DNA of 31,583 nucleotides from a virus, in the IMG/VR virus record IMGVR_UViG_3300042396_000766, positions 1 through 31,583 of that record, one strand, 5' to 3'. The position numbers were made by a program, and so were the translations under genes. Under the pieces are notes generated by a model. That model searched no databases. It was given only the letters and a program-made list of their open reading frames with translations, and was not told the DNA's origin. Below, in pieces: positions 466 to 24,901 of this stretch. Every line of letters starts with the position of its first letter. The first letter of the stretch is position 1.

Positions 466-2319
466 TTATCCAAAAATTAACGCCATTTTCCTTGCTGTTC
501 TTTCAATCATAGCATCAAAATCTAGGATGGGCAAACATCCCAGTGAAACATCTTGAGAAATTGCTGACAATACACTTCCACTGTAAACATAGGAAACCCC
601 TAACTTAATATTTCCAGACAAAGATCCAGAGGATAAACTTACCGCTATACCTGGCGATAAAAATAAACCAGGAATATAATTGGTCGGTTCTAAAGCTATC
701 AAACTAAATCCAGTAATAGCAGAAATATTAAAAGTTTGAGACGTTAGCCCTGTTGTGATTCCAGAAGGAGAATCCTGTCTATATAAAACGCCGTTAATCA
801 AAAGGTAGAAACGAATTAAGGAAACGTTGAAACCTCCCGATGGATAGGTTATTAGTGCCGAAATCCCCTGACTACTCAAAACTGATTCACTAGCACCCCA
901 AAAAACCCTAGATTCTCCCGCCTTTGTAGAAACAATTGCCAACAATGCCTCTGATGACTGGATAGCGTCAATACCTCGAAAAGTGGCTACACCATCACGA
1001 CTGAGGGTTATTTTTTGCCCTACAGTATTAGTTAAGAATCCAGATAAAAACTGCTCAGGTGTATCCAAAAATTCGAATATTCGAGACTGCGATCCATGAA
1101 TCATCCCCCCCCGCATCCTGCCAACTTTTACCCCTACAGAATCCGGCAAAACCCGACCCGTATAGTTTTCGTCTTTATAAATCAATCCCCCTTGTGGCTG
1201 CCTATAAATCAGACCACCCTCAACTAAAACGCCCGACTGAACCCCGCAGCTAAGTGTGAAACTTAAAACAGATCCGGGTGCTATCTGCAATTCTGAAGAC
1301 TTGAAACCAACGGCTATCTCAACAGCGACAACCCAATTATAGGGTAATGGTCTTTGAAATACAAAAAAGCCTAACTTCGTATCAACAGAAACCCATTCCC
1401 CAATACCATCCATATCGTTGCCGTCGCCCGTATCATTCTCGGTAACAAGCTCCCCAGATTCGATATTGACAAAGCCTAAAACCCTTGCGAATATCTTTCC
1501 ACTCAGTAAATTAGAAACAGGCTCCGAGCCATTCAGAAAACAGTTTAAACGGAGTCTCCTGCCCACTCCCATCTCTGATTCGTACAGATTCAGAAAAGCT
1601 AATCTAATTGGTGATTGGTCGGGATCGAATAATGATCCACTACCATCGGGAGTATAAATAGGGCGTGGAAAAAACGGGTTATTTGCCAAGATTTCAGCGT
1701 CAATATTTGCTGCGGGTTGATGACAGCCAAAAACTCCGCTAGTGCCACCAATTGGGAATGCTCCGTAGTTTGTAGATCCAAGATTTAAAACCCATTTATT
1801 CCCTAAACTATCAGAAATAACTTTAACCCCATCAACAGCTTGCGGGGTGTTTAGCCTCATGTAATAAGCACCCAAACTGGTAACGGTTCTTATTTGCCCC
1901 TGAATGGCGTTTGTTGGTAGTGCCAGAGGGTTTGCTACAGATGACGGGGTGATAGTTAGATCAGTATTTTGACTTAAGAGTAAGTCAGAGAATGTCGCTA
2001 AAGTTTTGCCGTTGTCTTCCCAGTTTTTCCAGATTCCGATAACGTGACCATTGGCTTTGTCGTTATTAGGTGAAGCAATTAAGAGATAATAAGGAAATAA
2101 AGTTCCCTCGGTTCTATTGGCAGAATTAAACTGAACTCTAATTCGACTCCCGACTGTATAATTTGCCAGTACAAGTGTTGAGCAAAAGTTAACGCCCGAT
2201 TCATTAAAGGCTTGAATCCCTAAATAAATCGTGCCATTTGTTGTTAAACTTCCTCCCGTTTCAACTGATACAATAGGGGGAAGACATTGATTCAAGTTAC
2301 CAGGAAAAATCGTACTCAT
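466..2319 (-). CDS. Probable virion/tail fibre protein, 617 aa
   Basis: A 617-residue protein rich in Gly, Ser, Asn, Thr and beta-prone segments, with few charged helical stretches except in the last 20 residues (DFDAMIERTARKMALIFG). No signal peptide or membrane segment is seen. The composition fits a fibre, baseplate-peripheral or receptor-binding virion protein, but no named family is recognised. The start codon (2319-2317) shares the tetranucleotide CATG with the start of the plus-strand gene at 2318, so the two genes diverge with no intergenic space; each promoter must lie inside the other gene or further upstream. The Shine-Dalgarno sequence is weak (AAGAA). The stop is coupled to the 56-aa gene downstream. 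Confidence 0.75.
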   Translation of the reverse strand: MSTIFPGNLNQCLPPIVSVETGGSLTTNGTIYLGIQAFNESGVNFCSTLVLANYTVGSRIRVQFNSANRTEGTLFPYYLLIASPNNDKANGHVIGIWKNWEDNGKTLATFSDLLLSQNTDLTITPSSVANPLALPTNAIQGQIRTVTSLGAYYMRLNTPQAVDGVKVISDSLGNKWVLNLGSTNYGAFPIGGTSGVFGCHQPAANIDAEILANNPFFPRPIYTPDGSGSLFDPDQSPIRLAFLNLYESEMGVGRRLRLNCFLNGSEPVSNLLSGKIFARVLGFVNIESGELVTENDTGDGNDMDGIGEWVSVDTKLGFFVFQRPLPYNWVVAVEIAVGFKSSELQIAPGSVLSFTLSCGVQSGVLVEGGLIYRQPQGGLIYKDENYTGRVLPDSVGVKVGRMRGGMIHGSQSRIFEFLDTPEQFLSGFLTNTVGQKITLSRDGVATFRGIDAIQSSEALLAIVSTKAGESRVFWGASESVLSSQGISALITYPSGGFNVSLIRFYLLINGVLYRQDSPSGITTGLTSQTFNISAITGFSLIALEPTNYIPGLFLSPGIAVSLSSGSLSGNIKLGVSYVYSGSVLSAISQDVSLGCLPILDFDAMIERTARKMALIFG

Positions 2320-2695
2320 GAAAATTCTTACAGAAAGTGGTTTAGGTCAAACTCTAGCAAATATTATTAAATCTCAATCACCTATCCAGAAAGGATCTGC
2401 TAGGCAATCAAAGCCTCAAGGTCAATCCGTAGCTGTTCAGTTAAATACATCCATCCCTGGATTCCCTTCAGTAATTAGGGCTTTTGCTTTTAATCCTGTT
2501 CGGGTAGGATCAAATAACGTTAGCTTAGTTAGATTGTCCGAGCCTATTGGCGGGTGTGATTGGGGGGCTTTTTCTGGTTCCCCCAGTCAGATTGTTGGAT
2601 CAAGGTCAGAAGTCAATGTATCCCAAACACCTCAATCTACAGATAGCAGAAAAATCAAAATCGAGATCAAGGTTGGTTACACCGGAAAGTTATAA
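2318..2695 (+). CDS. Hypothetical protein, 125 aa, lone plus-strand gene
   Basis: A 125-residue protein beginning MKILTESGLGQTLANIIKSQ. The first 50 residues are Gln/Ser/Lys rich, the middle is beta-prone, and the C-terminal 20 residues alternate charged and hydrophobic (RKIKIEIKVGYTGKL). It sits between two minus-strand genes. Its ATG overlaps the start of the 617-aa gene (CATG), and its stop shares the palindrome TTATAA (2690-2695) with the stop of the portal gene, where both strands read TAA. Such extreme packing is typical of phages. No better frame exists here on either strand. Function unknown; a small head or neck protein would fit its proximity to the portal. Confidence 0.65.
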   Translation: MKILTESGLGQTLANIIKSQSPIQKGSARQSKPQGQSVAVQLNTSIPGFPSVIRAFAFNPVRVGSNNVSLVRLSEPIGGCDWGAFSGSPSQIVGSRSEVNVSQTPQSTDSRKIKIEIKVGYTGKL

Positions 2696-4075
2696 ATATG
2701 GGTTACTCTCCTCTGGTTTTTCCTCTGTTGATGCCTCTGATTGCGCTTGTTCCTGCGCTTGTTTTTGCTGTTCGGCTGCCATGATTTTTTCAATTAATTC
2801 TTGGTTAAAATCCTCCTGTCTTCTTTGGCTTAATCCCAAGTCTTTTCTAAGCTGATTCAATGCCTCTAAATCAGTGGGATTGAATAAACCCGTTTGAATA
2901 CAAGTCATAATATTAGAAACTCTCATCCCAGATTGTGCCGGATCTAAGAATTGTTCAGACTCAAAAGTTCCATAATTATCTTGTATTCCAAAGTTCCACA
3001 TCAGCAAAGGGCGACAAACGTTATTAATTAATCTATCTCTAAATTGTCTGGCTATTTCCTCAATTAAACCATCCAGAATTAATCTATGTCCTGAGTTCAA
3101 ACCAGCCTGTCCGAGCGTAGCAGTGCCTTCATTAAAGATGGTATATGGGATTCCATAAGCTAACCATCTATATTTATCTAATTTTTCAGAAGTTAAATTA
3201 AAGAAACCCTCCCCCCCGGTTTGGGGAATCGTAGTAATAGTGTTATTTTTATCCGTTCCCACAATCGATCCATTAGCTAAATCCTTTAATTGATCTAAAG
3301 CCTGAGCTAATGCCGATGTGTTTTTAGTCTGTCCGTATTCGTCAAGAATAGGCTTGCCGTTCGAGTCCATCATCGGGATTGGTTCAGTTGACGGAACTTG
3401 TACGATAGTTAACCCCGTCGCTTGCCGTTGACAAGCTACACTCCATTCCCGCATCAGTAACTTATGAAATTCCCAGAAAGGATAGGCTGCTGCGGCTTGC
3501 GGATCTCCATTCGGATCATTGCTATCAATTGGAGTGTTCGAGATGTGTAAGCACTTTGCATAGGGGATTCCCACCTCTCCTTTACTAGACGAATAAATAA
3601 TCCGATCTATCTGACCGGATTTCCCTGCAAACTTAATCCGACTGGGTTCTAAAATATTAAGTCGCTTAATCCTTAATTCTCCCTTGTGTCCCTCCATCTC
3701 GGTACTAAACACAATCTCGGCAACACTCCGACCTAAACCATAGGCTTGTTTACTCATCTGAAGGATCACGTCAGATAAAGACCCATCCATTAATTCCCAA
3801 CAGGAATTAATAAACTCAACCGGAGTAAAATTGCCAGAGGGAAAACTAGCCACATCATTGTTTCCATGCTTAAACGTCCCTATTAATGCGATCGCCCGTG
3901 ATGCCTTAACAGTCAAAGCCGCGCCCGATATTGGATCGGCTTTGAGCATTGCAGCTAAATCCTTAATTGGGTATTTTCCCCTAGTGTCTAAGCTAGAGAC
4001 AAAATCCCAGATTAAATTATCAAGACTGGGTGATATTTGACCCGGAAGGTAACTTAATTTCTCAACCACTATCAA
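2690..4075 (-). CDS. Phage portal protein (DUF935 / Mu gp29-like)
   Basis: 461 residues, a usual portal length. The N-terminal segment KDLAAMLKADPISGAALTVK resembles the portal clip/wing start, and the run around residues 205-225 (FHKLLMREWSVACQRQATG) is typical of DUF935-type portals, as is the helical C-terminal half. Portals form the dodecameric DNA entry ring at one capsid vertex. The C-terminus is Gln/Glu rich, as often seen. The frame opens with TTG at 4075-4073, overlapping the end of the upstream regulator; the GTG two codons later (4069) is an alternative and has a G-rich tract at Shine-Dalgarno distance. It is on the opposite strand to the rest of the head operon, which is unusual because portal normally precedes protease in one transcript. 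Confidence 0.8.
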   Translation of the reverse strand: MIVVEKLSYLPGQISPSLDNLIWDFVSSLDTRGKYPIKDLAAMLKADPISGAALTVKASRAIALIGTFKHGNNDVASFPSGNFTPVEFINSCWELMDGSLSDVILQMSKQAYGLGRSVAEIVFSTEMEGHKGELRIKRLNILEPSRIKFAGKSGQIDRIIYSSSKGEVGIPYAKCLHISNTPIDSNDPNGDPQAAAAYPFWEFHKLLMREWSVACQRQATGLTIVQVPSTEPIPMMDSNGKPILDEYGQTKNTSALAQALDQLKDLANGSIVGTDKNNTITTIPQTGGEGFFNLTSEKLDKYRWLAYGIPYTIFNEGTATLGQAGLNSGHRLILDGLIEEIARQFRDRLINNVCRPLLMWNFGIQDNYGTFESEQFLDPAQSGMRVSNIMTCIQTGLFNPTDLEALNQLRKDLGLSQRRQEDFNQELIEKIMAAEQQKQAQEQAQSEASTEEKPEESNPYL

Positions 4076-4362: not shown

Positions 4363-5253
4363 ATGGGTGTTTCTTGCTTTGACGGTATAGGTGGATTGTG
4401 TCAGTTTTCTGAAGACAACCCCACCGGAGAACTGATTAAAAACGCTTTGGTTTTAATTGAGGGAACGCATAAAGATAACCAAGGGGTAGTCCACGAGTTC
4501 CCGTCAGAACGGATATTGAGAATTGCACAACGGACAAATGCGGCAATGTCTCAAGGTTATGAGATTCCACTTATGTCCGATCATAGCAAGCAATTGATCG
4601 GGGCGGACGGCGAACTCAAAAAACTTGGGATTTTTGTTAGTCCTTTCGAGTGTCGGGTTATCCGTCAAGAGGATTTACCCAACCCAAAAATGCAACACTT
4701 AATCGGAAAATTAGGTGCATTTTCCAGGGTTAATATTCTTAATAAGGTTAACGAAGTCCGATCAAAACTAATTAATCTTTTAAGTCCGGGCGTTGATCTA
4801 AAACTTGAAAGGTTAGCAGAAGTATCCGCCGTTGCTTTTCCTGCTATTCACGGCCCCGCGCTTTTCGCTGCGTCATCTACTGTTCAAGACTTGAGTTTTG
4901 CTTCAGTCAAAGAGGAGCAGGGAACGTTTAAGCGACAAAGAGAGGACTTGCTAGAGGAGTTTGAAATCCTATTACAAACCATCCAACGGATTCAAAAAGC
5001 CTCACCTGAACAATTGGTAGCGGTAACTCCTGAGCAATTGTTATCAACTGCGATTGACGAATTTACGGCAGAAATTAAGCAATATTTTGGGCTTGATAAT
5101 TTGAGTCAATCAATAAATCAAGAACCGGAATCGCCGTACAATTCAAGCCCTTATGCTAATGAATTAATTAAAGGGCAAGCCACTTATTCCCTGGGTAACA
5201 CTACTTCTAATTTTGGTGAGACGGGGTTAAGGCGACGGAGAAAGAACCGATAA
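4363..5253 (+). CDS. Prohead protease-scaffold fusion candidate
   Basis: 296 residues with two parts. Residues 20-170 look like a capsid maturation protease: a beta-rich start, IPLMSDHSK with His74, LLSPGVD with Ser141 and a terminal LAEVSAVAFP segment resembling the 'EVS-V-PA' ending of S78-type prohead proteases. Residues 170-270 are helical and charged, as in protease-fused scaffolds. The C-terminus ends LRRRRKNR, echoing the basic tag of the following array. ALF|AA at 166-170 lies exactly at the junction of the two parts and matches the A-x-F motif of the array proteins, so it could be a self-cleavage site. No Shine-Dalgarno sequence precedes the ATG. The assignment rests on motif order and position upstream of the capsid gene. 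Confidence 0.55.
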   Translation: MGVSCFDGIGGLCQFSEDNPTGELIKNALVLIEGTHKDNQGVVHEFPSERILRIAQRTNAAMSQGYEIPLMSDHSKQLIGADGELKKLGIFVSPFECRVIRQEDLPNPKMQHLIGKLGAFSRVNILNKVNEVRSKLINLLSPGVDLKLERLAEVSAVAFPAIHGPALFAASSTVQDLSFASVKEEQGTFKRQREDLLEEFEILLQTIQRIQKASPEQLVAVTPEQLLSTAIDEFTAEIKQYFGLDNLSQSINQEPESPYNSSPYANELIKGQATYSLGNTTSNFGETGLRRRRKNR

Positions 5254-5291: not shown

Positions 5292-5696
5292 ATGAGTTAT
5301 TACCAATACGAACCGCCTGTAGCTATGTTTTCAATGGCAGAAGTTGATAAATATAATAATTATCAAAACGGTGCGGGTGTAGCTGCCTTTGCAAAAGATC
5401 CGTTTGGGCCAGGGCCGGGATGGAGAGCTAAAGAAGCAGTTAAAGGCTTCCCTCGTACTGTTGGTCGAGCCGCAGGAAAAGGGATGGGTGTTGCAGGAAA
5501 AGGTGTGCAATCGGCTGGCAATGCTGCGGGTACGGGCGCGAGAAAGTTAGGTATTTTGATGAGAAAGAATCCGACACTAGCTGGTGCAGGTATCTTGGGT
5601 GCTGCTGCGATTGGTGCTGGGGCTGGTGGGGTAATGTTTATGCGTCGCCGTCGTAGCAAAACCGGAAAAATGATTGTTGAACAAGTGAGACGCTAA
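5292..5696 (+). CDS. Array unit 1: tagged Gly-zipper protein, 134 aa
   Basis: Start ATG has a clear AAGGAG at spacing 7. The N-terminus differs from most units (MSYYQYEPPVAMFSMAEVDK) and is related to unit 3, sharing the pattern F-S-x-x-E-V-x-K-Y. It carries A-M-F at 11-13 and A-A-F-A at 31-34. Residues 55-92 are Gly/Ala/Lys rich; residues 95-116 form a Gly/Ala hydrophobic segment with G-x-x-x-G spacing, ending in RRRRSKTGKMIVEQVRR. No known family is recognised. The stop overlaps the start of unit 2 (TAATG). A membrane-active or capsid-internal protein is possible; the shared ends suggest common targeting or processing. Confidence 0.75.
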   Translation: MSYYQYEPPVAMFSMAEVDKYNNYQNGAGVAAFAKDPFGPGPGWRAKEAVKGFPRTVGRAAGKGMGVAGKGVQSAGNAAGTGARKLGILMRKNPTLAGAGILGAAAIGAGAGGVMFMRRRRSKTGKMIVEQVRR

Positions 5697-6249
5697 TGAT
5701 TATCGTTCGGAGGGTCATACATAGAAGCTCCGCATTGTTTCAAAAAGCATTGATGCCCCGTGGTTCCGGTTTTTACGACGGACACAGCTCTGGATCTCTT
5801 GACGCTTTTGTCAGTCATCAAAAGTGGAGGAGAAACGCTGACAATGAGTCATTGCAAGCAAAAAAAACAGAGAACATAATAGATATGAAAGACGACTTGC
5901 TAAGTTAAAGGCTGAAAAGCAATATTGGACGTCTAGGGACTTGGCTCGGCAACTTAAAGATCCTTGGAATGATTGGTTTGATCCCGAAAAAATTAATCGA
6001 ACCGCACCAAATCAGCAAGTTCCTCCATCTACACGATTCCTTAATCCCAGTGTAGATGCTAGTCCTCCTCCACCCCCACAATCCCCAAACACTGCAACTA
6101 ACTCCAAAACAGTAACTAAACCTGGATCAAACTCAAAAGCGGTATTAGCAGGTCTAGCTGCTGCGGGTTTAGTAGGTGCAGGAGCTTACTTTATTAGGAG
6201 ACGAAAATCATCTAAAGGTAAACAAATTATTGAGAGGGTTAGACGCTAA
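5696..6249 (+). CDS. Array unit 2, split by a -1 frameshift at an A8 run
   Basis: The zero frame (5696-5908) encodes a canonical N-terminus, MIIVRRVIHRSSALFQKALM, with A-L-F at 13-15, but stops after 70 residues without the tag. The -1 frame is open from 5848 to 6249 and encodes the missing rest: a charged helix, a Pro-rich linker, a Gly-zipper segment (AGLAAAGLVGAGAYF) and the tag RRRKSSKGKQIIERVRR. The frames join at eight A residues followed by C (5860-5868), in zero frame A-AAA-AAA-C. A slip of -1 yields one protein of 184 residues with complete family architecture. It may be programmed frameshifting, transcriptional slippage or a real frameshift mutation; the sequence cannot decide. A separate TTG start at 5941 is unlikely because it has no ribosome binding site. 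Confidence 0.7.
5860..5868 (+). other. Candidate -1 slippery site (A8C)
   Basis: The zero frame reads GCA AAA AAA ACA GAG; a -1 slip on the two AAA codons gives AAA AAA AAC AGA and continues in the frame that carries the unit 2 tag. An SD-like GGAGGAG lies at 5826-5832, about 27 bases upstream, further than the usual stimulator distance. No obvious downstream hairpin was found by eye. The same homopolymer is also a common site of indel mutation and sequencing error. Confidence 0.5.
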
Positions 6250-6276
6250 TGCAAAAGACAAAAGTAGAGGTATACC

Positions 6277-6738
6277 GTGCCAATATTCTCTCAAATTGAA
6301 GTTAATAAATATCAGAAATATGCCAATTTTGGGGTAAAAACAGAAGTTGTTGATAGCGACCCTTGGGGTGGTGGATATCCTAAAAAAGCAAAGGGCGCTG
6401 ATATTTTTGACAGAGTTGGAAATAGAGTTGCGGATTGGGCTGAAGCTCCTCATCAAAATGCGGTTAAGAAAGTGAATGACTCACTTAGGGAACAGCTTAA
6501 ACAAAACTCTCGCGCAACCATTCATCCGGCTGACGCAAAAAAACTGACTGAACTTTATAATCGAGCGGAATCTTTTAGGAGACACTCTCGCTCGGTTGGA
6601 AAACTAGCTGTTGGCGGTGCTGCTGGATTGGGTCTACTTGCTGCGGGTGCGGCTGTCGCTGGGGGTGCAACGTTCATGCGTCGTCGTCGAACTAAAAAAG
6701 GCAAGATTGTTGTTGAACAAGTTAGGAGAAAACAATGA
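6277..6738 (+). CDS. Array unit 3: tagged Gly-zipper protein, 153 aa
   Basis: The GTG start is preceded by AGAGG at spacing about 6. The N-terminus (MPIFSQIEVNKYQKYANFGV) resembles unit 1 rather than the MIIVRR class and carries A-N-F-G at 16-19. The middle is charged and helical (AVKKVNDSLREQLKQNS), followed by a long Gly/Ala hydrophobic segment of about 27 residues and the tag RRRRTKKGKIVVEQVRRKQ. A 16-codon frame beginning ATG at 6249 overlaps the end of unit 2 and runs into this gene; it could be a coupling leader. The stop overlaps unit 4 (ATGA). Function unknown. Confidence 0.75.
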   Translation: MPIFSQIEVNKYQKYANFGVKTEVVDSDPWGGGYPKKAKGADIFDRVGNRVADWAEAPHQNAVKKVNDSLREQLKQNSRATIHPADAKKLTELYNRAESFRRHSRSVGKLAVGGAAGLGLLAAGAAVAGGATFMRRRRTKKGKIVVEQVRRKQ

Positions 6739-7262
6739 TCATTGTTCGTAGGACTAGACCCGCCAAATCCGCGCTGTTTGCTACTTATGCACTTCCAGAA
6801 GGGCGTAGGAGTAAGGGTGATGACAGGAAACAAAGGAGGGCTACGAAAACATACGCAAGGCGTGGTTATGAACGGGGTTGGCAATCTTTGGATAGAGACT
6901 TATGGACAGGGAACCCGTCGAGAGTTATCCGTGTAGGAGGGGAGTCTGCAACTCCAACACCAAAATCTTATACCGAAAACTTAACCCCTCGTCAAAAAGA
7001 GCTAACACAAGAAGCTGAAAGACTGCGCCAGAAATTAAATGATTCTTTCAAAAAAACACAAGAAAGGGTAAATCAAAAAGTTCATGTAGAACCGCCTAAG
7101 TTTAACCTCACGGAAAAAGATGTACCTAAAAAAATACCAACAAAGCTATTACTAGCTGGTTTGGGTGTTGCTGGGTTGGTCGGTGCGGGTGCGTTCTTCA
7201 CCCGAAGGCGTAGGTCTAAAAATGGAAAAATAGTGGTCGAACAAGTTAGGAGAAAAGCATGA
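6735..7262 (+). CDS. Array unit 4: tagged Gly-zipper protein, 175 aa
   Basis: Start ATG overlaps the previous stop (ATGA) and has AGGAG at spacing 6; that AGGAG is inside the codons of the previous tag. N-terminus MIIVRRTRPAKSALFATYAL with A-L-F-A at 13-16. Residues 25-70 are very basic, residues 95-125 predict as charged helix (QKELTQEAERLRQKLNDSF), then a short Lys/Pro linker, a Gly-zipper hydrophobic segment (LLLAGLGVAGLVGAGAFF) and the tag RRRRSKNGKIVVEQVRRKA. The hydrophobic segment is nearly identical to that of unit 6 while the middles are unrelated. No known family is recognised. Confidence 0.75.
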   Translation: MIIVRRTRPAKSALFATYALPEGRRSKGDDRKQRRATKTYARRGYERGWQSLDRDLWTGNPSRVIRVGGESATPTPKSYTENLTPRQKELTQEAERLRQKLNDSFKKTQERVNQKVHVEPPKFNLTEKDVPKKIPTKLLLAGLGVAGLVGAGAFFTRRRRSKNGKIVVEQVRRKA

Positions 7263-7618
7263 TTATTGTAAGACGAAGGGTAAGCAATGAAGCAAACTTT
7301 GGACTCGTTGATCTAATTAAAGAGCCTTTTCGTAAGTACGGGCGATATCTTGCTGAAAAGGCAAAGGATAGAGCAGGTGCAGCCATGCAAGAAGTTGTCA
7401 AGAATCCGAGTGCTGCTAACACTAAAAATGCTGCCAACTTAAACGCTGCCGCTAGTTGGGCAAAACAGAACCCAGGAAAGTTAGGTGCTTACAGGGTTGC
7501 CCCATTAGCTGCTGCTTTTATTGGAGGTGGCATGATTGCAGCCGGATCAAAAAGTTTCACCCGCCGTCGTCGTACCAAAAACGGAAAAATCGTTGTTGAG
7601 CAAGTAAATAGAAAATGA
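7259..7618 (+). CDS. Array unit 5: tagged Gly-rich protein, 119 aa
   Basis: Start ATG overlaps the previous stop (ATGA) with AGGAG at spacing 6 from the previous tag. N-terminus MIIVRRRVSNEANFGLVDLI with A-N-F-G at 12-15. The middle (residues 20-70) is Ala/Lys/Asn rich helix; residues 80-97 are a Gly/Ala hydrophobic segment (PLAAAFIGGGMIAAG), followed by FTRRRRTKNGKIVVEQVNRK. In this unit the tag arginine that would complete an SD sequence is Asn (AAT), so unit 6 has a weaker ribosome binding site and probably depends on coupling. Function unknown. Confidence 0.75.
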   Translation: MIIVRRRVSNEANFGLVDLIKEPFRKYGRYLAEKAKDRAGAAMQEVVKNPSAANTKNAANLNAAASWAKQNPGKLGAYRVAPLAAAFIGGGMIAAGSKSFTRRRRTKNGKIVVEQVNRK

Positions 7619-7860
7619 TAATTGTTAGGAGGTTTGTTAAGTCTAAATCATCTGCTAATTTTGCCTATGCTCCTGATTTCAAAAATATGTATTGGGATGA
7701 GGCTGAGGAGGCTAGGGCTAAAGCAAATAAGTCTAAAATAGATCCTAGATTATTGTTAGCAGGATTGGGTGTAGCTGGTGCGGTTGGTGCGGGTGCTTAC
7801 TTTATCTGTAGGCGTAGATCTAAAAATGGTAAACAGATTGTCGAGAGGGTTAAACGATGA
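7615..7860 (+). CDS. Array unit 6: shortest tagged Gly-zipper protein, 81 aa
   Basis: Start overlaps the previous stop (ATGA). N-terminus MIIVRRFVKSKSSANFAYAP with A-N-F-A at 14-17. There is only a short charged middle (DEAEEARAKANKSK) before the Gly-zipper segment LLLAGLGVAGAVGAGAYF and the tag, here CRRRSKNGKQIVERVKR with Cys replacing the first Arg. This is the minimal complete unit and shows what is conserved: basic start, A-x-F, hydrophobic zipper, basic tag. The stop overlaps the start of the decayed unit 7 (ATGA). Function unknown. Confidence 0.75.
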   Translation: MIIVRRFVKSKSSANFAYAPDFKNMYWDEAEEARAKANKSKIDPRLLLAGLGVAGAVGAGAYFICRRRSKNGKQIVERVKR

Positions 7861-7969
7861 TAATTATTAGGATAATATGAAACAAAAGAAACAAGATTTT
7901 AGTAAAGCCTTTACCCGGCGAATGTGAACTAAAAATGGTAAGATAATTGTAGAACAAGTTAGGAGGTGA
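7857..7969 (+). pseudogene. Array unit 7: decayed remnant
   Basis: ATG at 7857 overlaps the stop of unit 6 and encodes only MIIIRII before TGA, a remnant of the conserved start. A second frame from ATG 7877 reads MKQKKQDFSKAFTRRM, stop (TGA, 7925-7927), then TKNGKIIVEQVRR and TGA at 7967-7969: a recognisable tag with a nonsense codon in the arginine run. The variable middle and hydrophobic segment are gone. The 3' end still contains AGGAGG, the ribosome binding site of unit 8, which may be why this end has been kept. It cannot make a complete family protein. Confidence 0.75.
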
Positions 7970-7970
7970 T
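7961..7970 (+). promoter_or_regulatory. Perfect Shine-Dalgarno sequence inside the unit 7 remnant
   Basis: AGGAGGTGAT is a full complement to the 3' end of bacterial 16S rRNA and lies nine bases (from AGGAGG) before the TTG start of unit 8. It is formed by the last two Arg codons and the stop of the decayed tag, and it decides the choice of the non-ATG start at 7976. Confidence 0.7.
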
Positions 7971-7975
7971 GTAAT

Positions 7976-8356
7976 TTGATTGTTGTTAGGAGGGTTAAAC
8001 ATCGAAATCAATATACAAATCATTTAACGGCTCAATTCGGATTTTATGATTGGGTCGGAAGAAAAGGAGGTGATGTTCTGGAATGGCAAATTAACAACTT
8101 TCAAAAAAGAAACCCGCAATATTACAATAACCCCGATTTCAAAAATGAGACAGATGAGTATATTAATCGAGTCAACAGATTCAGAGCCGATCCCCAAGAG
8201 AACCGTGCGTTTGGCAAGCGTATAGCAGGAATCTACGGGAAAATGGCTTTAGGAATTGCAGCTACTGGTGCTGTTGTCGGTGCTGCTATGTACTTTACTA
8301 GAAAACGAAAAACCAAAAACGGTAAAGTAGTTGTTGAGAGGGTGAAAAAACGATGA
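7976..8356 (+). CDS. Array unit 8: tagged Gly-zipper protein, 126 aa
   Basis: TTG start, supported by the perfect SD upstream and because the product then begins MIVVRRVKHRNQ, matching the family. A-Q-F-G is at 19-22 within HLTAQFGFYDWVGRKGGDVL. The middle is Asn/Arg/Lys rich with a helical stretch near 60-85; residues 90-108 are Ala/Gly/Val hydrophobic (MALGIAATGAVVGAAMYF), followed by TRKRKTKNGKVVVERVKKR. The first 12 residues and 20 bases are shared with unit 10. The stop overlaps unit 9 (ATGA). Function unknown. Confidence 0.75.
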   Translation: MIVVRRVKHRNQYTNHLTAQFGFYDWVGRKGGDVLEWQINNFQKRNPQYYNNPDFKNETDEYINRVNRFRADPQENRAFGKRIAGIYGKMALGIAATGAVVGAAMYFTRKRKTKNGKVVVERVKKR

Positions 8357-8643
8357 TAATTATAAGAAGAATAAGATCCCCTTCTTTAGCTCAATTTGGT
8401 TTTAATCCGTTTGGTCGAATAGAACGGGTAAATAAAGGGGCAGAACGTCAAAGAATAACCTTACAAAAGGCTTTGGATTCTGCAAAATCTGAGGGCAAAA
8501 ATCTTCGAGATCCCAAGGTTTTAAGACAGGTTATGCTCCCTGTTGCCCAAGCCAATAAAGGTCGAACTGGCGGATCTGCTTTCACCCGAAGGCGGAAAAC
8601 CAAAAAGGGCAAAATAATCATAGAACGGGTAAACAGAAAATGA
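8353..8643 (+). CDS. Array unit 9: tagged basic protein without clear membrane segment, 96 aa
   Basis: Start overlaps the previous stop (ATGA). N-terminus MIIIRRIRSPSLAQFGFNPF with A-Q-F-G at 13-16. The rest is a basic helix (ERQRITLQKALDSAKSEGKN) and a moderately polar stretch (MLPVAQANKGRTGGSAF) where other units have a hydrophobic zipper, then TRRRKTKKGKIIIERVNRK. This member shows that the tag and A-x-F are conserved without the hydrophobic segment, so those ends are likely the functional signal and not simply flanks of a transmembrane helix. The stop overlaps unit 10 (ATGA). Confidence 0.7.
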   Translation: MIIIRRIRSPSLAQFGFNPFGRIERVNKGAERQRITLQKALDSAKSEGKNLRDPKVLRQVMLPVAQANKGRTGGSAFTRRRKTKKGKIIIERVNRK

Positions 8644-8927
8644 TTATTATTAGGAAGGTTAAACATCGAAATCAATTAGCTTCTTTCAATGCCTTACTAT
8701 ATGGTACGGCTGCAATTGGAGGTATAGGACTAGGTGCTTTATATGGTCGTAGTCAACTCAGGCAAAACAATAGAGAATACCTTGAAAAACGCCCAAAAGT
8801 TAAGCAAGGACTTCTCATCTTGACAAGACCTGAAGCTGCTATCGGTATCAGTGCAGGAAAAGTGTTTTCCCGTCGTCGCCGTACCAAAAATGGAAAAATC
8901 GTTGTAGAACAAGTTAGGAGGAAATAA
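8640..8927 (+). CDS. Array unit 10: tagged Gly-zipper protein, 95 aa
   Basis: Start overlaps the previous stop (ATGA). N-terminus MIIIRKVKHRNQLASFNALL with A-S-F-N at 14-17. In contrast to other units the Gly-rich hydrophobic segment comes early (residues 18-34, LYGTAAIGGIGLGALYG); a basic stretch and a weaker hydrophobic stretch precede the tag SRRRRTKNGKIVVEQVRRK. The tag codons GTT AGG AGG supply the ribosome binding site of the acidic protein gene that follows, seven bases before its GTG. Function unknown. Confidence 0.75.
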   Translation: MIIIRKVKHRNQLASFNALLYGTAAIGGIGLGALYGRSQLRQNNREYLEKRPKVKQGLLILTRPEAAIGISAGKVFSRRRRTKNGKIVVEQVRRK

Positions 8928-8928
8928 A

Positions 8929-9903
8929 GTGGATTCACTTAGTCAAATTCAAGCAATCTTAGAGTCAACAACTTTCGAGGAAGTTCACGATTCAGCAGAA
9001 ACATTTTCGGCATTTCTTGAATTAGCTCAATCTGCCCTTGATCAAGAGGATAGGGAAGTTTTGGGCGAAGAAGAAATGGATGATGTAATCGCTGAAGGGA
9101 TTGAAGATTTTGCTTCTACTCTTTATCAAATTTTTGGAATTGACGTAGAAGAATCTCGAATGGAAGATGAAGGCGAGATGGAAGAATATGCCCAAAACAT
9201 GGGATATGTTGCTTCTTTTTCTCAGGGATTTGGTCAAACTTTAGCGGGTTTGATTGAGCAACGTTTCAACTCAATTGATGATGGTGTTGCTGTTGTCAGT
9301 GAAATCACCGGATTAGACGGGCGAGATATTTCTAGCCTGTTTGATGGGACGCTGGCAATCGAACCCGAAACCGCCGCCGAATTAGCAGACGCTTTTCAGT
9401 TAAACGGTCAAGATTATAACGATTTCGTTAATCTGGCTGCCAATGCTTTTACTGAGTTAGGGGGATCTCCCAATGATTCTTATTCCCTCAGTGAAGGCAT
9501 TCATGCTGAACCCGTTGTCACCATGAATGCTGACATCGGACTCCGTGCCGAATTTGAAGCCCTCAAGGAACAGCAAGCCATTGGAGAAACACTCCGAGCT
9601 ATCGAACGGCAATGTGATCAGATGATTGCCGCTGGGATTTTAACAACCCATGAGCGCCGACTGCTGATTGGAGAATTTGAAACGGGTCAAGATCGGACGG
9701 CTCAATTTTCCTCGGCTTGTGAAGGGTTAAGCGTCCCACCGGGTCAACAGTTAGATCGTCTGCAATATTACCTTTATATTGCCAACGCTCGCGGCCCTAT
9801 CGCTCAATTTGGACAAATGGCTAACGACCCGATTGACACAGACTTCTCCCATGAAGATGTGCAGTCCATTCAATCATTCCGCACCCGCAATGGATACGTT
9901 TAG
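8929..9903 (+). CDS. Acidic head protein, scaffold candidate, 324 aa
   Basis: GTG start with AGGAGG at spacing 7. Residues 1-95 are strongly acidic with many Glu/Asp helices. Residues 125-155 (ITGLDGRDISSLFDGTLAIE) resemble an XRE-like helix-turn-helix core. Residues 205-250 are a charged helix (EQQAIGETLRAIERQCDQMI). A-Q-F occurs at about 258-260 (followed by Ser) and 292-294 (followed by Gly), the same motif as in the array. Position just before the decoration and capsid genes and the acidic helical composition suit an internal scaffold. Its net negative charge is opposite to the very basic array proteins, so a direct interaction is plausible. Family not recognised. Confidence 0.5.
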   Translation: MDSLSQIQAILESTTFEEVHDSAETFSAFLELAQSALDQEDREVLGEEEMDDVIAEGIEDFASTLYQIFGIDVEESRMEDEGEMEEYAQNMGYVASFSQGFGQTLAGLIEQRFNSIDDGVAVVSEITGLDGRDISSLFDGTLAIEPETAAELADAFQLNGQDYNDFVNLAANAFTELGGSPNDSYSLSEGIHAEPVVTMNADIGLRAEFEALKEQQAIGETLRAIERQCDQMIAAGILTTHERRLLIGEFETGQDRTAQFSSACEGLSVPPGQQLDRLQYYLYIANARGPIAQFGQMANDPIDTDFSHEDVQSIQSFRTRNGYV

Positions 9904-9912
9904 GAGTAACAA

Positions 9913-10824
9913 ATGAAAGTAACCCGTTTTTATTCAGACCCCCCAGTTATCGCGGTTAATACCAATACCGAAGCCGCGTTTTCTTGCTGCTTAGAGGAGT
10001 CGGACATCCCATCTATTGCAGGATCTAAATCCGTTCCTGCGGGTGTTTTTCTTGCTAAGAAATCTACAGGCGGTCATCGTCCTTTAGGTCGGGCTAAGAT
10101 TCTCGCTCCCTATGTTTCCGGCGAAACTGTTGTAATTGTGGAATGCCCCCAGGTTTTCAAGATTGGAGATGTACTTCGCTACATTGCAGCACCAGGGGTT
10201 TCACGGTACACAGAAGAAACCGCTATTCGTGCAGCTACAGCCCCGCTATTTGGGACTGTGACGGGTATTGATTCTTTGACTCAAAGACAAGTTACAACCG
10301 TTACCTTTGCTTCGGTTGCTGTTGGCAATATCTTTACCGTTTCCATCAATGACGCTCCGATTTCATTCGTTGCCACGGCTGCATCAAATCAGAACGTTGC
10401 CGATGGTCTAAAAGCGGCTATCACCAAAGCACAATCTGGGTCTTCTCCCTTAGAAGAAATCCGAGTAACAACTCCGGGCGGTGTTTTGACACTGACTACA
10501 GACCAGGAAGGAATCATCTTTACCACGGCTGTAACGGTAGCTCAGGGCGTTGCTAACACTTTAGGGACTGCGGTTGCTGATGTGACCACTGCAATCGGAA
10601 CCTTGACGATCACCCCTCAAGGTGGTAACGCCTCCCTAGCTATTGGAGCCAAGATCGGCACGATTGGGGATGTTGTTGTCGGGGTGTTGAATAGCACTAT
10701 CTCGCTCTATGACGGAGATCAGTTTATCGCTCCATACTCAGGTGGTGTCGTTTCTATTAATGCGTTGCCATACATTGACGGTGACATCCAAAGCCAACTG
10801 CCGAAACTAACTTTTATTCCTTAA
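9913..10824 (+). CDS. Head decoration-like protein, 303 aa
   Basis: ATG with AGGAG at spacing 6; the SD overlaps the upstream stop. Residues 35-100 (PAGVFLAKKSTGGHRPLGRA, then FKIGDVLRYIA) and the last 60 residues (GDVVVGVLNSTISLYDGDQF) are beta-rich and resemble lambda gpD-like capsid-stabilising proteins, which sit immediately before the gpE-like capsid gene. About 110 residues in the middle (QRQVTTVTFASVAVGNIFTV and onward) look like an inserted beta domain of the kind repeated in tail and surface proteins. I infer that a decoration trimer carries an extra exposed domain. No enzymatic motif is seen. Confidence 0.55.
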   Translation: MKVTRFYSDPPVIAVNTNTEAAFSCCLEESDIPSIAGSKSVPAGVFLAKKSTGGHRPLGRAKILAPYVSGETVVIVECPQVFKIGDVLRYIAAPGVSRYTEETAIRAATAPLFGTVTGIDSLTQRQVTTVTFASVAVGNIFTVSINDAPISFVATAASNQNVADGLKAAITKAQSGSSPLEEIRVTTPGGVLTLTTDQEGIIFTTAVTVAQGVANTLGTAVADVTTAIGTLTITPQGGNASLAIGAKIGTIGDVVVGVLNSTISLYDGDQFIAPYSGGVVSINALPYIDGDIQSQLPKLTFIP

Positions 10825-10840
10825 CGGAGGGACTTGATTA

Positions 10841-11968
10841 ATGTATATTGCAGATTTCTTAAATAACGTATCGGCTGCACAGGTTCAACTCCTGTATGAA
10901 GATACTTTTCAATTCTTGATTGACCCAGATAAAGAATCCCTCCTACAACGGATGGGCAAAAAACCCGACCCCGGCGTTCTGAGTCAATACAAACTGATGG
11001 ATGATTTTGTCACCCTTGAGTTTTCCGATGACCCTGATGTGTTGGCATATCTTGTTAAACAAAACCTAGCAATCGCTTCCGTGATTTCCGTTGATGGTGA
11101 GGTTGTCTCAACGGGTGCAGGAAGTCTAATTAAGTTTGATGGAGACTTCTTTAAGCTGGCGATCGCCCACAACTGGGATGAGAAAAAGCAGGAGCAAATG
11201 CTGAAGTTTAAACGGATGTTACCGGGCAATATGTCCCAGACATTCATTGATATGCTTTACGGCTCCGTCGCTAGTTTGCAGCCACGGGTGATCAAACTAG
11301 CCAACGTCTTAACTTGGCAAGTTTTACAGTCGGGTCAAGTTAGTTATACCGACCCCCGATCCGGTGTAACGGCTAAATTGGCTTATACCACTACAGCCGA
11401 TCAGTATCCTACAGCCTTATCTGGGACGGCTAAATGGGATGCTTACACTACAGCCACAGGGTTGCAGGATATTGAAGATCACTTACTCAACTTCTACGAC
11501 AAGAAAGGATATTACCCCGACAAGATTGTGATGTCTAATCGGTTGGCTATCCATTTAAGCCGTCAAGAATCAACCCGTAACCGAGCGTTATCTACTGGGA
11601 TGTTGTCTAATGTTCCGGCTGCGGGTGTGGCTAGTGCCGTGTCTCCTGAGATTCTAATGCGGGTTGTCCCTCAACTGGCAATGTCCAAAACTCAATTAGA
11701 GATTTACGATGCTCAGTATGAGATCGAAACCGCGCCGGGTCAAACGGTCAAAGGTCGTTACCTGAATGACAATGCCTACTGTTTCCTGACTGCTGGCATG
11801 GGCAAAAGATTATTCGGCCCCACGATTGAGAATGAAGGGAGATCGGGTTTATTTGTGAAGACTGAACAATTGCAAACATCCCCACCCCGTGACCGTTCCT
11901 ACTGCGTTGGCAAAATGGTTCCTTTCTTCCCACAACCTGACTTATTAGGAGGTCGGACAGTCGCATGA
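10841..11968 (+). CDS. Major capsid protein, lambda gpE-like
   Basis: 375 residues, slightly longer than lambda gpE (about 341). The segment from about 165 to 215 (LTWQVLQSGQVSYTDPRSGV, then AKWDAYTTATGLQDIEDHL) is typical of the gpE family, followed by PDKIVMSNRLAIHL and a C-terminal beta-rich half (YLNDNAYCFLTAGMGKRLFG). This is the HK97-fold shell protein. GGAGG precedes ATG at spacing 10. It follows scaffold- and decoration-like genes, the canonical order. The stop overlaps the next gene (ATGA). No A-x-F cleavage signal of the array type occurs near its N-terminus. Confidence 0.85.
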   Translation: MYIADFLNNVSAAQVQLLYEDTFQFLIDPDKESLLQRMGKKPDPGVLSQYKLMDDFVTLEFSDDPDVLAYLVKQNLAIASVISVDGEVVSTGAGSLIKFDGDFFKLAIAHNWDEKKQEQMLKFKRMLPGNMSQTFIDMLYGSVASLQPRVIKLANVLTWQVLQSGQVSYTDPRSGVTAKLAYTTTADQYPTALSGTAKWDAYTTATGLQDIEDHLLNFYDKKGYYPDKIVMSNRLAIHLSRQESTRNRALSTGMLSNVPAAGVASAVSPEILMRVVPQLAMSKTQLEIYDAQYEIETAPGQTVKGRYLNDNAYCFLTAGMGKRLFGPTIENEGRSGLFVKTEQLQTSPPRDRSYCVGKMVPFFPQPDLLGGRTVA

Positions 11969-12438
11969 TAGATACCACTAGACCTGTAAAACTTCTCAAA
12001 ATGGCGGTCAATCGAGGGAATATCTATCACCCTCGAATCTATAACCCTGGCGAATTACCAGAGGAAGTGTTAGCACGGGTTGATATTTTGCAACAGGATG
12101 AACCAAAAAACCCTGATGCAGTATTAACCCCAACTATCAATAACTCGGACGTGAAAGTTGAGAATAGCATCTCATTCTCGGTAGAAGCTCCGAGTACAAT
12201 TCCCAAAGCCTTTCCCACTGAAACCGTTGTTGTTGGTGCTGTTTTACCCAAAACAGATATTAATAAAGCCACGATTGACGAGCTTTCTAAATTGCCAGGT
12301 GTTGGTGCTGCGATCGCCACTAAACTTGACAAAGCACGGGAGCAACAACCCTTTACCTCTGTTGAGGATTTAGATACAAGAATCCCACTTAGAGGGAAGT
12401 CTTGGGACGAATTAAAAGAATCTATTTTGATCCAATGA
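11965..12438 (+). CDS. Head protein with C-terminal helix-hairpin-helix domain, 157 aa
   Basis: The first 60 residues (VNRGNIYHPRIYNPGELPEE) look like a short phage head-associated module. After a Thr/Pro/Val-rich linker, residues 97-157 form a ComEA-like helix-hairpin-helix: DINKATIDELSKLPGVGAAI, then EQQPFTSVEDLDTRIPL and a final helix. The hairpin L-P-G-V-G is intact. Such domains bind DNA backbone without sequence specificity. A DNA-binding domain on a small protein encoded directly after the capsid gene could contact packaged DNA or the exit channel. The start overlaps the capsid stop (ATGA), with AGGAGG 12 bases before ATG. Confidence 0.65.
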   Translation: MIDTTRPVKLLKMAVNRGNIYHPRIYNPGELPEEVLARVDILQQDEPKNPDAVLTPTINNSDVKVENSISFSVEAPSTIPKAFPTETVVVGAVLPKTDINKATIDELSKLPGVGAAIATKLDKAREQQPFTSVEDLDTRIPLRGKSWDELKESILIQ

Positions 12439-12992: not shown

Positions 12993-13007
12993 AAAGAAAA
13001 ATTAATT

Positions 13008-13400: not shown

Positions 13401-13415
13401 AGGTGCGAGGATAGA

Positions 13416-15563
13416 ATGATTGACTTTCCAACTTTGTTTCCGAGTCTTGTTAAATACATCCCGAACTGGATGGAAAAGTTCTATCCTCGCATGGCACAAT
13501 TCGCACGGGGTGAGGGATATCCCTGTGGCAATAAAGGGGTTTTTATCCCGCGTCGTAATAAGTGTTGGACGCATCCCAAAACGGGTAATAAACTCAAGCA
13601 ACCTCTGACATATCAGAAATATCAAGAGGCTAAAGAGAAATCCCAGAAAAGCCGTACAGAGAAGGGTAGAACGGCTTTACAGGATAGGGAGCAGGGTTTT
13701 AGAGATAAGGCACGGGAGAAGGCTAAGGGGTGGCAGAATAAAACACCCGATTCAGGCGTAAGCGAGAGAGCGATCGCAGATATAGGAAAGGTTAAATCTG
13801 GACAGATATTGCTTAACGAAAAAGAGAGATACAGATTACAACATGACAGGGGGATGTATCTATTAAACGATCCAAAACTGTCAGCTAGACAGGGCGGAAC
13901 ATCAAAAAAACTAACCGAAAAAGAAGCTACGGATTTTCTGGCGGAACAGTACGAAAAAGGGGAAACCAAATACACGCCTAATAGAGAATACCTTGGCGGT
14001 GTTGGGCATAAGTTGTTTATAGATTCAAACACCCCAGAAGGAAAGGCTTTATTAGAGGCTGAGGAATTAGTTAAAAAAACTAAAAAAACTAGCTCAAATT
14101 ATCGTGTTGCTGTAGATTTTAAAAATGTTGCTACAGTTGACTATATTGCAAAACGTTCAGCTAATTCGCCAACTAAAGAACAACAGGAATATAACAATAA
14201 ACAACCCGATAAAATTGAATTAGAAAAAGGTATGGGATTATCTGAAGGATGGAGGTCTGAGAATGCTAAAAGGCGTTACTCTGGCAAGTCTGAGGATATA
14301 ACCGCTCACAATGATGTTACTGGTATTCCCTGGAAAGTTACATCATCTAATGGCAGGGAAGATGTCATCGTGGGTGCAAAAGTGTCAGATAGTTATGATG
14401 GAGAAAAAAGACAACTCACGCTGCACAAATCCGATGGCACTATGTCGTTTAGTCCTTTTGCTAAAAATGATAAAGAAAAAGAAAATAGAGCAAAAAGGTT
14501 AGTTAAAGAAATCACTCAGGGCAAATCCCAAAACGTTAACATTGACGATATCAATTCAATGATTGATAGTGGAAAGCTACCCAAACCATCCCTAAATTCA
14601 ACAGGGGTTAAGGGTGCGGGGGGTAAATCGGTTGATCAACAATATAAGGATATTATTGCCAGTTCTAAGCACCCAGGTAGAACAGAGGAGGAATTATTTT
14701 CAGCATTAAGACGAGGGATTAGTGAATCTGATAAAAAAGATTACAATAGATATTCTGATGCTATAAAATCTGGGACTGTTCCGAAAGGATATGGGGAATA
14801 TTACCAAGAAAGGGTTGACAGATTTAAGCCCGTTATTGATGCTGAAGACTTTATAAATGAGAGACGAAAAAAAGCAATAAAGGGGGACTATGAAACAGAA
14901 GAAGAAGCAAGGGTTTATGTTCAAAATAAATCAGAAGAAAAGAACTATAAGCATCTTGAATACTATGATAGTCCAGGCTACAAAGACGACTATGATAAAT
15001 TAAAAGGTGTGGTAAAATCAGGTAAACTCCCCGTTCCTTTGTCTGGAATTGTTCCTAGTAAAGAACTAAGAAAGACGTTAAAATCGGGCGATAATTTACT
15101 AATTAAACAAAATACTTATTCAGCCACCAGTAGTGGAAATTCCCCTACTGGCTACAAAATTGTAGACGGGGGAAATGTTCTTAGAGTTGGCATCAAAAAT
15201 GTCAAGGTCAGAGAGCAGGGTGATTATATGGGAAAACCCTATGACAGAGAAGAAACTGTTGGACTTGATAAAGTCTCCCACGTCATCCGAGATGGTAAAC
15301 GTTACAAAGTAGATGATTCTGATAGTTCACCTAATGATTTAGGAGTACAAGAGAAGGCAACTACCAAGAGACGCACCAAGAAAAAAGACTTTAATTCCCA
15401 TCTCAACATAACCGAATTTGGAGGTAATAACTTGAGACGGCGTAAATCTAAAATAGCTAAATTTGCAAAACCCGGATGCTGTTGTGATGCCTCCAAACCT
15501 TTAAGACGCCGGAAAACAAAGCAAACCCCTAGACTGAAAAGAAGGGGGACTCGATATGCTTGA
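13416..15563 (+). CDS. Large basic protein of unknown function, 715 aa
   Basis: ATG with GAGGATAG upstream. Highly charged (Lys, Arg, Glu, Asp, Gly) with few hydrophobic segments. The N-terminus has MAQFARGEGYPCGNKGVFIP, then RRNKCWTHPKTGNKLKQPLT; A-Q-F-A is at 27-30 and the Cys/His spacing could bind metal. Residues 75-110 are a charged helix. The C-terminus carries NNLRRRKSKIAKFAKPGCCC (A-K-F-A at 681-684) and PLRRRKTKQTP, two copies of a motif like the array tag, plus three consecutive cysteines. A minor capsid or capsid-internal protein fits the A-x-F sites and basic tail. No catalytic motif recognised. The last codons overlap the next gene by 8 bp. Confidence 0.7.
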   Translation: MIDFPTLFPSLVKYIPNWMEKFYPRMAQFARGEGYPCGNKGVFIPRRNKCWTHPKTGNKLKQPLTYQKYQEAKEKSQKSRTEKGRTALQDREQGFRDKAREKAKGWQNKTPDSGVSERAIADIGKVKSGQILLNEKERYRLQHDRGMYLLNDPKLSARQGGTSKKLTEKEATDFLAEQYEKGETKYTPNREYLGGVGHKLFIDSNTPEGKALLEAEELVKKTKKTSSNYRVAVDFKNVATVDYIAKRSANSPTKEQQEYNNKQPDKIELEKGMGLSEGWRSENAKRRYSGKSEDITAHNDVTGIPWKVTSSNGREDVIVGAKVSDSYDGEKRQLTLHKSDGTMSFSPFAKNDKEKENRAKRLVKEITQGKSQNVNIDDINSMIDSGKLPKPSLNSTGVKGAGGKSVDQQYKDIIASSKHPGRTEEELFSALRRGISESDKKDYNRYSDAIKSGTVPKGYGEYYQERVDRFKPVIDAEDFINERRKKAIKGDYETEEEARVYVQNKSEEKNYKHLEYYDSPGYKDDYDKLKGVVKSGKLPVPLSGIVPSKELRKTLKSGDNLLIKQNTYSATSSGNSPTGYKIVDGGNVLRVGIKNVKVREQGDYMGKPYDREETVGLDKVSHVIRDGKRYKVDDSDSSPNDLGVQEKATTKRRTKKKDFNSHLNITEFGGNNLRRRKSKIAKFAKPGCCCDASKPLRRRKTKQTPRLKRRGTRYA

Positions 15564-16002: not shown

Positions 16003-16006
16003 AACA

Positions 16007-16813: not shown

Positions 16814-16817
16814 AAAT

Positions 16818-18068: not shown

Positions 18069-18072
18069 AACA

Positions 18073-24774: not shown

Positions 24775-24778
24775 ATTG

Positions 24779-24820: not shown

Positions 24821-24821
24821 A

Positions 24822-24830: not shown

Positions 24831-24843
24831 TAATAATAACAAA

Positions 24844-24874: not shown

Positions 24875-24881
24875 AGTAACT

Positions 24882-24898: not shown

Positions 24899-24901
24899 CA
24901 C

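Follow-up and report, generated by a model that had tools for sequence, protein, structure and literature searches.

Introduction

The prohead protease of phage T4 cleaves at the motif (I/L)-x-E, and SXE is a prohead-protease motif in giant phages of the SPN3US/phiKZ type. The internal proteins of T4 are described as small, diverse and conserved only in their capsid-targeting sequence (PMC3012670), and Ip1-3 as injected anti-restriction proteins that were shown to block restriction enzymes (PMC12373910). It is further reported that the N-terminal 30 residues of P1 DarB suffice for capsid targeting (PMC9024508), that DarB is of the methylase-helicase type and that polyvalent proteins are large, multidomain and predicted to be packaged and injected (PMC5512222), and that the SPN3US protease, which itself has a C-terminal propeptide, cuts several head proteins at AXE, two of which carry N-terminal propeptides 20 and 24 residues long (PMC10052503). 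Here we analyse a 31,583-nucleotide viral DNA (IMG/VR record IMGVR_UViG_3300042396_000766; the whole stretch is hereafter called the window), in which an array of small genes at 5292-8927 encodes proteins with nearly constant ends and differing middles.

An earlier note, made from the window's sequence, had taken the constant ends of these proteins for a targeting or packaging signal and their middles for diverse cargo, by analogy with the T4 internal proteins. Our analysis leads us to regard the array as probably a recombining magazine of interchangeable, protease-processed cargo held inside the head, which would work in the manner of T4 internal proteins without being homologous to them. A literature search of titles and abstract openings, with few subscription papers among them, returned no description of such an array.

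Layout of the array

Ten copies of the C-terminal tag were found when an 18-amino-acid (aa) query was searched against the window, all of them at 5643-8924 (E 7.3e-8 to 0.018) and none elsewhere in it; the consensus is F-x-RRRR[TS]KxGK..VExVRRK. The array had been placed between a protease-like gene and the scaffold and capsid genes, in agreement with the positions of the protease gene (4363..5253) and of the gene for a scaffold-like protein (8929..9903). It had also been counted as ten units. The ten tags bear out this count, but the list of open reading frames (ORFs) holds only eight intact units (134, 153, 175, 119, 81, 126, 96 and 95 aa), the remaining tag copies belonging to one frameshifted unit and one remnant.

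All units lie on the plus strand. Unit 1 (5292..5696, 134 aa), the first of the array, carries the N-terminal signal AMFSMAEV and is allelic among viruses. Unit 2 (5696..6249) is frameshifted in the window into ORFs 5696-5908 and 5941-6249, and an unbroken 185-aa copy is present in four related loci (L012, L016, L021 and L025). Unit 3 (6277..6738, 153 aa) has a GTG start codon and begins MPIFSQIEVNKYQKYANF/G, where the slash here and below marks the presumed cut. It is followed by units 4 (6735..7262, 175 aa), 5 (7259..7618, 119 aa) and 6 (7615..7860, 81 aa), by the remnant unit (7857..7969), and by units 7 (7976..8356, 126 aa, TTG start), 8 (8353..8643, 96 aa) and 9 (8640..8927, 95 aa), the last of the array. 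The remnant has almost no middle, and its tag (7916-7969) contains an in-frame TGA; the same dead unit also occurs in L016, L025 and L029, and perhaps it has been kept for the sake of its tag or coding start, which might still be of use in recombination or for translating the unit that follows. Neighbouring units mostly overlap by 4 bases (ATGA) or by one base, so their translation is probably coupled.

Seven of the ten units begin with an MIIVRR-like sequence (those at 5696, 6735, 7259, 7615, 7976, 8353 and 8640), as the statement that most do had implied, but the units at 5292 (..AMFSMAEV..) and 6277 (MPIFSQIEV..) begin differently and the remnant reads MIIIRII and then a stop. Pairwise counts over the ten tags give a synonymous difference (pS) of 0.765 and a nonsynonymous difference (pN) of 0.233, confirming that the tag codons vary mainly at synonymous sites; at the opening codons of the seven units with MIIVRR-type starts the values are 0.787 and 0.118. 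Since pS lies well above pN in both, the constant ends are held at the protein level.

The 47 distinct complete units of the window and its relatives fall into 18 clusters, four of which are alleles of unit 1. After both ends and the 20 residues preceding the tag had been cut away, 8 of 153 cluster pairs matched at E<=0.01, six of them between unit 1 alleles. The middles, which had been called unrelated, are mostly so, but the unit 1 alleles are related and a Gly/Ala-rich stretch recurs, preceding the tag in most units. A membrane-type hydrophobic stretch (best 19-residue Kyte-Doolittle mean of at least 1.5, ending at most six residues from the tag) adjoins the tag in 11 of the 18 clusters, which suggests that many unit bodies touch membranes; unit 8 has no such stretch (0.33), and the best stretch of unit 9 (1.48) lies near its N-terminus. 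Between orthologous units the pooled pN/pS is 0.28 (most diverged pairs, nine clusters), a value built on small counts, with about half of the synonymous changes in one unit and three of the nine units above 0.7; unit 8 stands at 0.13.

Searches of the units against Pfam, PHROGs and NCBIfam yielded weak matches only and no convincing family, and a tblastn search with one unit in 50,697 phage records yielded no match even at E 10. Of the matches to Pfam Gram_pos_anchor and to NCBIfam sorting domains, only that of a single 185-aa unit to LPXTG_anchor rose above its curated cut-off (16.6 bits, threshold 15.9, E 0.0096); no LPXTG motif was seen by eye in the unit sequences inspected. The structure prediction for unit 7 is poor (predicted local distance difference test, pLDDT, 50), with residues 111-120, which lie in the tag, reaching 73 within a beta-hairpin; at low confidence, this tag may form a beta-hairpin.

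Unit turnover among near-identical viruses

With the major capsid protein (10841..11968, plus strand, 375 aa; phrog_29, E 3.6e-17) as the anchor in the search for relatives, 22 viral loci were found at 95-100% identity. Tags are present in 25 of the 27 loci examined (20 distinct records, window included), and the two without them, L075 and L078, end before or inside the first unit. Five capsid loci (L011, L014, L015, L024 and L030) show no array match and begin downstream of the array. In records covering the whole interval from protease to scaffold (the slot), the number of tags is 3 (the L023 type, for which a regular expression gives 2 and a further search 3), 4, 5, 6, 7, 9 or 10, and the partial record L025 carries 12.

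This comparison of near-identical viruses shows unit turnover. L074, with a protease 99.8% and a scaffold-to-capsid stretch 99.6% identical to those of the window, lacks unit 4 and holds an extra 86-aa unit, and other unit differences are seen in L069 (flanks 99.2 and 99.6%) and L028 (99.7 and 99.0%). L066 equals the window throughout the region and is not an independent case. The set is thus strain-variable with a constant signal, unit content differing where the flanks are 99% identical. In the slot-spanning records the unit with ..AMFSMAEV.. comes first and that with ..ASFNAL.. last, the latter being broken in L016 and L028. Where pieces matching the window join, they overlap by 58 (L017), 58 (L069) and 81 (L070) bases that span a tag and the next start; joints inside repeated DNA are as expected from homologous recombination, which we infer to be the mechanism.

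In the 84.7-kb record of L028 all nine tags are confined to the array, as are the MIIVRR-type starts among ORFs of at least 60 aa, a scan that misses ORFs crossing piece borders. The tagged array was found only where the capsid protein is at least 95% identical. The expectation that related phages would hold such arrays is borne out among close loci but not beyond them; the distant relatives hold one to four longer slot proteins, none with a tag seen.

An A-x-F motif in array, scaffold and protease

The proteins have a third constant part, missed by the earlier note: an A-x-F near residue 15, followed by a small residue (ANF/G, ANF/A, AQF/G, ASF/N, ALF/A and AMF/S). The pattern [AST]xF starts at residue 8-20 in 17 of the 18 clusters, whereas 5000 shuffles averaged 1.7 and never exceeded 8; the single miss is a representative that begins at a contig edge, and within the first 25 residues all 18 have the pattern. 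In 17 of the 18, F is followed by S, G, N or A. Right at the tag, F-x-basic occurs in all 18 clusters, with A at position -2 in only eight. By eye, several bodies show a D-P-W or W-D motif shortly after A-x-F (such as SDPWGGGY, SDPWDEPF and KDPWNDWF).

Since A-x-F was already in mind, a ranking was made of every i,i+2 residue pair with five or more occurrences. A-x-F came first in the slot proteins of the window, PA-SR01, L036 and L091 (28 seen, 9.1 expected), and it was in excess in scaffolds (17 against 6.5, p 0.0003) and in proteases (9 against 4.2, p 0.02). The counts were 13 against 4.1 in the window units, 10 against 3.1 in the PA-SR01 slot and 11 against 4.4 in the Pam2 slot. No enrichment was seen in decoration-like proteins (7 against 6.0), the tape measure (12 against 15.1) or seven downstream proteins of the window (4 against 3.7). 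A looser form of the motif was counted in PA-SR01 22 times in eight head-region genes (7.5 expected) and 119 times in 77 other genes (96.6 expected), these 85 of the 165 features being a non-random sample because the other 80 are mostly short or piece-spanning genes.

The 296-aa protein upstream of the array (4363..5253, plus strand; C-terminus TTSNFGETGLRRRRKNR), a putative head maturation (prohead) protease, matches phrog_976 over residues 15-77 (E 1.4e-5). Nine sequences share the invariant residues D73, H74, E153, S155, P160 and A161 in a D-H and ExSxV..PA context, whose His and Ser we take to be catalytic, and the PA-SR01 relative is annotated as 'Mu-like prophage I protein'. In four lineages the protease tails read xF and then basic residues: SNF/GETGLRRRRKNR, AQF/NLSATGKKYVRGTAKQ, ADF/GRKSRYSSNGAK and SVF/NGNGNGKLLKTRRRK. 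The acidic protein downstream (8929..9903, plus strand, 324 aa), to judge by position and composition a scaffold, carries the sites LRAEF/E, TAQF/S and IAQF/G and has no family match in Pfam or PHROGs. When five scaffold sequences 21-38% identical to that of the window were aligned, A207, F209, F260 and F294 were among 20 invariant columns, all in A-x-F-like sites. We read A-x-F as a putative prohead-protease site, the conserved motifs pointing to cleavage after F. The Phe described in PMC11445458 makes a capsid contact and does not mark a cleavage site.

Array-type starts on large proteins

The start pattern [ILMVFY]F[STRK][MLQ]x[DE][IVAL] was scanned for in the first 16 residues of ORFs of at least 60 aa at 15 loci (six frames, at most six starts each). 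It occurs only in units 1 and 3 (from the window, L016, L023 and L028), in the slot proteins of L036 and L091, and in two large proteins of L091, the prophage of Nostocales cyanobacterium HT-58-2; the PA-SR01 and Pam2 slot proteins lack it. The pattern was composed after its members were known and so speaks for specificity, not discovery. One of the large proteins (L091:16713-19583, 956 aa) matches the phage DNA methyltransferase family phrog_15406 (2e-213) and has PF19846, and the other (L091:12861-14681, 606 aa) matches positions 1001-1347 of the 1362 of the portal family phrog_21 (2.5e-62). Their first ~64 residues are alike (E 1e-16), in a domain carrying CG.TFIP...KCWTD, and they have a basic LKRRLKRR..ANFS stretch in common (E 0.013), while the rest differs. 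Given the P1 DarB precedent, the most economical reading of a slot-type start on large proteins of the injected type is that it is a head-packaging signal.

The N-terminal domain of the 956-aa protein recurs in a 715-aa protein of the window (13416..15563, plus strand; BLASTP 7e-15 over ~89 residues), which has MAQF/ARG near its start and ITEF/..LRRRK..AKF/A near its end, matches neither Pfam nor PHROGs, and is a probable further head cargo.

Distant relatives, host and neighbouring genes

More distant viruses hold fewer and longer proteins in the slot. L036 (capsid 49% identical) has one 257-aa protein with two Gly-rich repeats split by YLAEF/AET, L091 (capsid 47%) a single 226-aa protein, and the Pseudanabaena phages PA-SR01 and Pam2 with similar contigs (capsid ~30%) two to four longer proteins, in which IRKSANF or AEF sites are repeated between Gly-rich modules. 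In Pam2 the slot proteins are Pam2_15, Pam2_16 and Pam2_17 (UQS94895-94897), with Pam2_14 as protease and Pam2_18 as scaffold. No RRRRTKNGK tag was seen in the slot proteins of these relatives, and a tag search of the L036 record gave zero matches. Unit 1 resembles the L036 slot protein weakly, on Gly/Ala-rich sequence (E 0.008; 0.14 for another allele), and the L036 and L091 slot proteins match at 3e-5 over 53 residues. With slot and A-x-F present in distant relatives in which no tag was seen, both the slot and its A-x-F rule appear to be ancient, and the tagged array looks like a local elaboration. By eye, the slot proteins of L080, L084 and L079, contigs like the Pseudanabaena phages, consist of similar Gly-rich modules, fused in some and split in others, that are set between IRKSANF sites; they resemble polyproteins that undergo reshuffling too.

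Prophage relatives are rare: the genome collection gave two loci, one of which, the Planktothrix locus L092, looks like a chance match (21 residues, with no phage head genes in the list of ORFs around it). Relatives of the protease were found in one of 386 cyanobacterial genomes, the starting genome. The host is very probably cyanobacterial, as indicated by CRISPR spacer matches. The 37 nucleotides at 16863-16899 of the window match, at 97%, a spacer in a seven-repeat array in a genome of the order of HT-58-2, and two further cyanobacterial genomes match 11089-11134 and 16238-16273 between repeats, as judged by eye; the spacer matches lie in L098, L099 and L100 at 90-97% identity. Altogether 15 of 388 genomes match window 8900-28800 at E 0.001, and these three of the 15 were examined.

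Upstream of the protease gene, a Mu-type portal gene (2690-4075, minus strand; PF06074, 4e-16) lies on the strand opposite to protease, array and capsid, and downstream of it in its own direction is a gene for a large protein (466-2319, minus strand) matching phrog_31840, a family without an assigned function. In the HT-58-2 prophage, an ORF that by eye resembles transposon TnpB (L091:15160-16437, minus strand) sits amid genes for head and tail.

Discussion

In the mechanism that we consider probable, each array protein would consist of an N-terminal signal ending in A-x-F, a variable body and a basic C-terminal tag, the body often closing with a Gly/Ala-rich stretch of membrane type. The constant ends would attach the protein to the scaffold within the head as it assembles, and the prohead protease encoded upstream would cut array proteins, scaffold and its own chain after A-x-F, as the conserved motifs suggest; F-x-RRRR may be a second cut, by which the tag would be removed. 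The bodies, having lost their ends, would remain in the head, leave it with the DNA and act on the envelope or the defences of the cyanobacterial cell. Recombination between tags could delete, add or swap whole units in frame, because the coding sequence is similar at the end of every unit and at the beginning of most, and the start of one unit mostly overlaps the stop of the one before. The two outermost units keep their positions and may be structural. Of the analogy with T4 internal proteins put forward in the earlier note, the core is favoured by the slot position, the A-x-F common to scaffold and protease, the turnover and the start on injected-type proteins, but the likely cut site shifts to the N-terminal A-x-F.

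Several observations weigh against this reading. An ordinary membrane protein could likewise have a hydrophobic stretch followed by a basic tail. The units are paralogues, so that matches in 18 clusters are not 18 independent events and the common motif is not independent evidence, and the N-terminal regular expression was composed after its members were known. The A-x-F excess is borderline in the L036 slot (3 against 1.0, p 0.057), not significant in the single L091 slot protein (2 against 0.93, p 0.23) and absent from the major capsid protein (4 against 5.1 expected), and the looser motif exceeds expectation in the PA-SR01 tape measure as well (18 against 9.6, p 0.006) and in two further PA-SR01 genes (p 0.03-0.04). 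The identity of the protease depends on one modest PHROG match and motif residues; the protein has no Pfam match and no PDB sequence match of such a kind up to E 1, and its AlphaFold model is poor (pLDDT 43). Finally, no published proteomics was found that places slot proteins in particles. The PA-SR01 paper used sodium dodecyl sulfate-polyacrylamide gel electrophoresis and states the need for mass spectrometry. The structural proteins of Pam2 were analysed by mass spectrometry and are marked only in a figure (PMC9382816); the passages searched in that text do not name gp14, gp15 or gp16, and those on gp17 concern Pam1 and Pam5. The Pam2 data could speak for or against packaging and may already hold the answer.

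That the units are instead structural, small core or inner-shell proteins that are cut by the protease, shape or stabilise the head or neutralise its DNA, and have no role in the new host, would suit the fixed places of the first and last units, the retention of one to four slot proteins in distant relatives and the basic nature of the bodies, 17 of 18 of which are basic after both proposed cuts (isoelectric point 8.0 to 11.4; the other 6.3). We nevertheless think it unlikely, because tag number ranges from 3 to 10 among slot-spanning records with capsids at least 95% identical and broken units occur, so that most units look dispensable, and because the bodies are mostly unrelated. Still less probable are late-expressed membrane proteins serving as lysis aids, in superinfection exclusion or in envelope modification, inserted through the hydrophobic stretch with the basic tag kept inside. 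The hydrophobic stretch right before the R-rich tail in 11 clusters and the weak likeness to C-terminal sorting and anchor domains, below cut-offs but for the single LPXTG_anchor match, would be as expected of them, yet they leave unexplained the A-x-F common to scaffold and protease, the protease-scaffold slot kept in four lineages and the start on large cargo-type proteins, and neither unit 8 nor unit 9 has the stretch before its tag.

It would be surprising if the array were a selfish or recombination-driven repeat, integron-like, whose ends mainly serve recombination and whose products matter little. Its joints in tag-to-start DNA and its decayed units would agree with this, but pS exceeds pN at tag and start (0.77 and 0.79 against 0.23 and 0.12) and the orthologous units are constrained on pooled counts, small as these are and with a third of the units high. 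Integron attC sites, moreover, have a special fold, while RNA of four tag junctions has no folding advantage over shuffled sequence (z -0.6 to +2.0) and shows no attC-type folding.

We therefore keep to a magazine of head-internal cargo. A more far-reaching version of it, which we advance tentatively and would not ourselves bet on, is a two-part code, an N-terminal A-x-F signal and a C-terminal F-x-basic tag, that would be read by the scaffold and a Phe-cutting protease and would load both exchangeable small ejected proteins and large methyltransferase-type ones, the array being a fast-evolving arsenal against cyanobacterial envelopes and defences. If the cargo reading is true, a known strategy, that of the T4 internal proteins, occurs in a new version in unrelated cyanophages, with the cargo kept as one recombining cassette array. 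A-x-F with a basic tag would then be a sequence rule for finding head cargo in phage genomes, an unusual protease specificity is predicted, and ~15 small-protein families (18 clusters, of which four are unit 1 alleles) could be screened against cyanobacterial defences.

Collectively, the array resembles the T4 internal proteins in being a set of small, diverse and strain-variable proteins with a constant terminal signal and a maturation protease; packaging and injection are properties of the T4 proteins, and searches of the units in Pfam, PHROGs and NCBIfam found no sequence relation to them. Unlike in T4, the constant sequence is at both ends, the genes form one long array beside the protease, the virus is cyanobacterial with a Mu-type portal, and the motif is A-x-F: [LI]xE occurs in the first 25 residues of only two of the 18 representatives, as against all 18 for [AST]xF. 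As with the Dar proteins of P1, whose large DarB has an N-terminal packaging signal, the start of a methyltransferase, here in the Nostocales prophage, resembles that of a slot protein; unlike in P1, a similar start is also found on small array proteins, and a part in packaging or in protection from restriction would be putative. In SPN3US and phiKZ-type phages several head proteins are cut at one short motif, as is presumed here, but in the present case Phe replaces Glu at the presumed P1 position and there is a small cassette array. Lastly, the 606- and 956-aa proteins of L091 appear to be of the polyvalent kind, whereas the array proteins are single small bodies and not multidomain.

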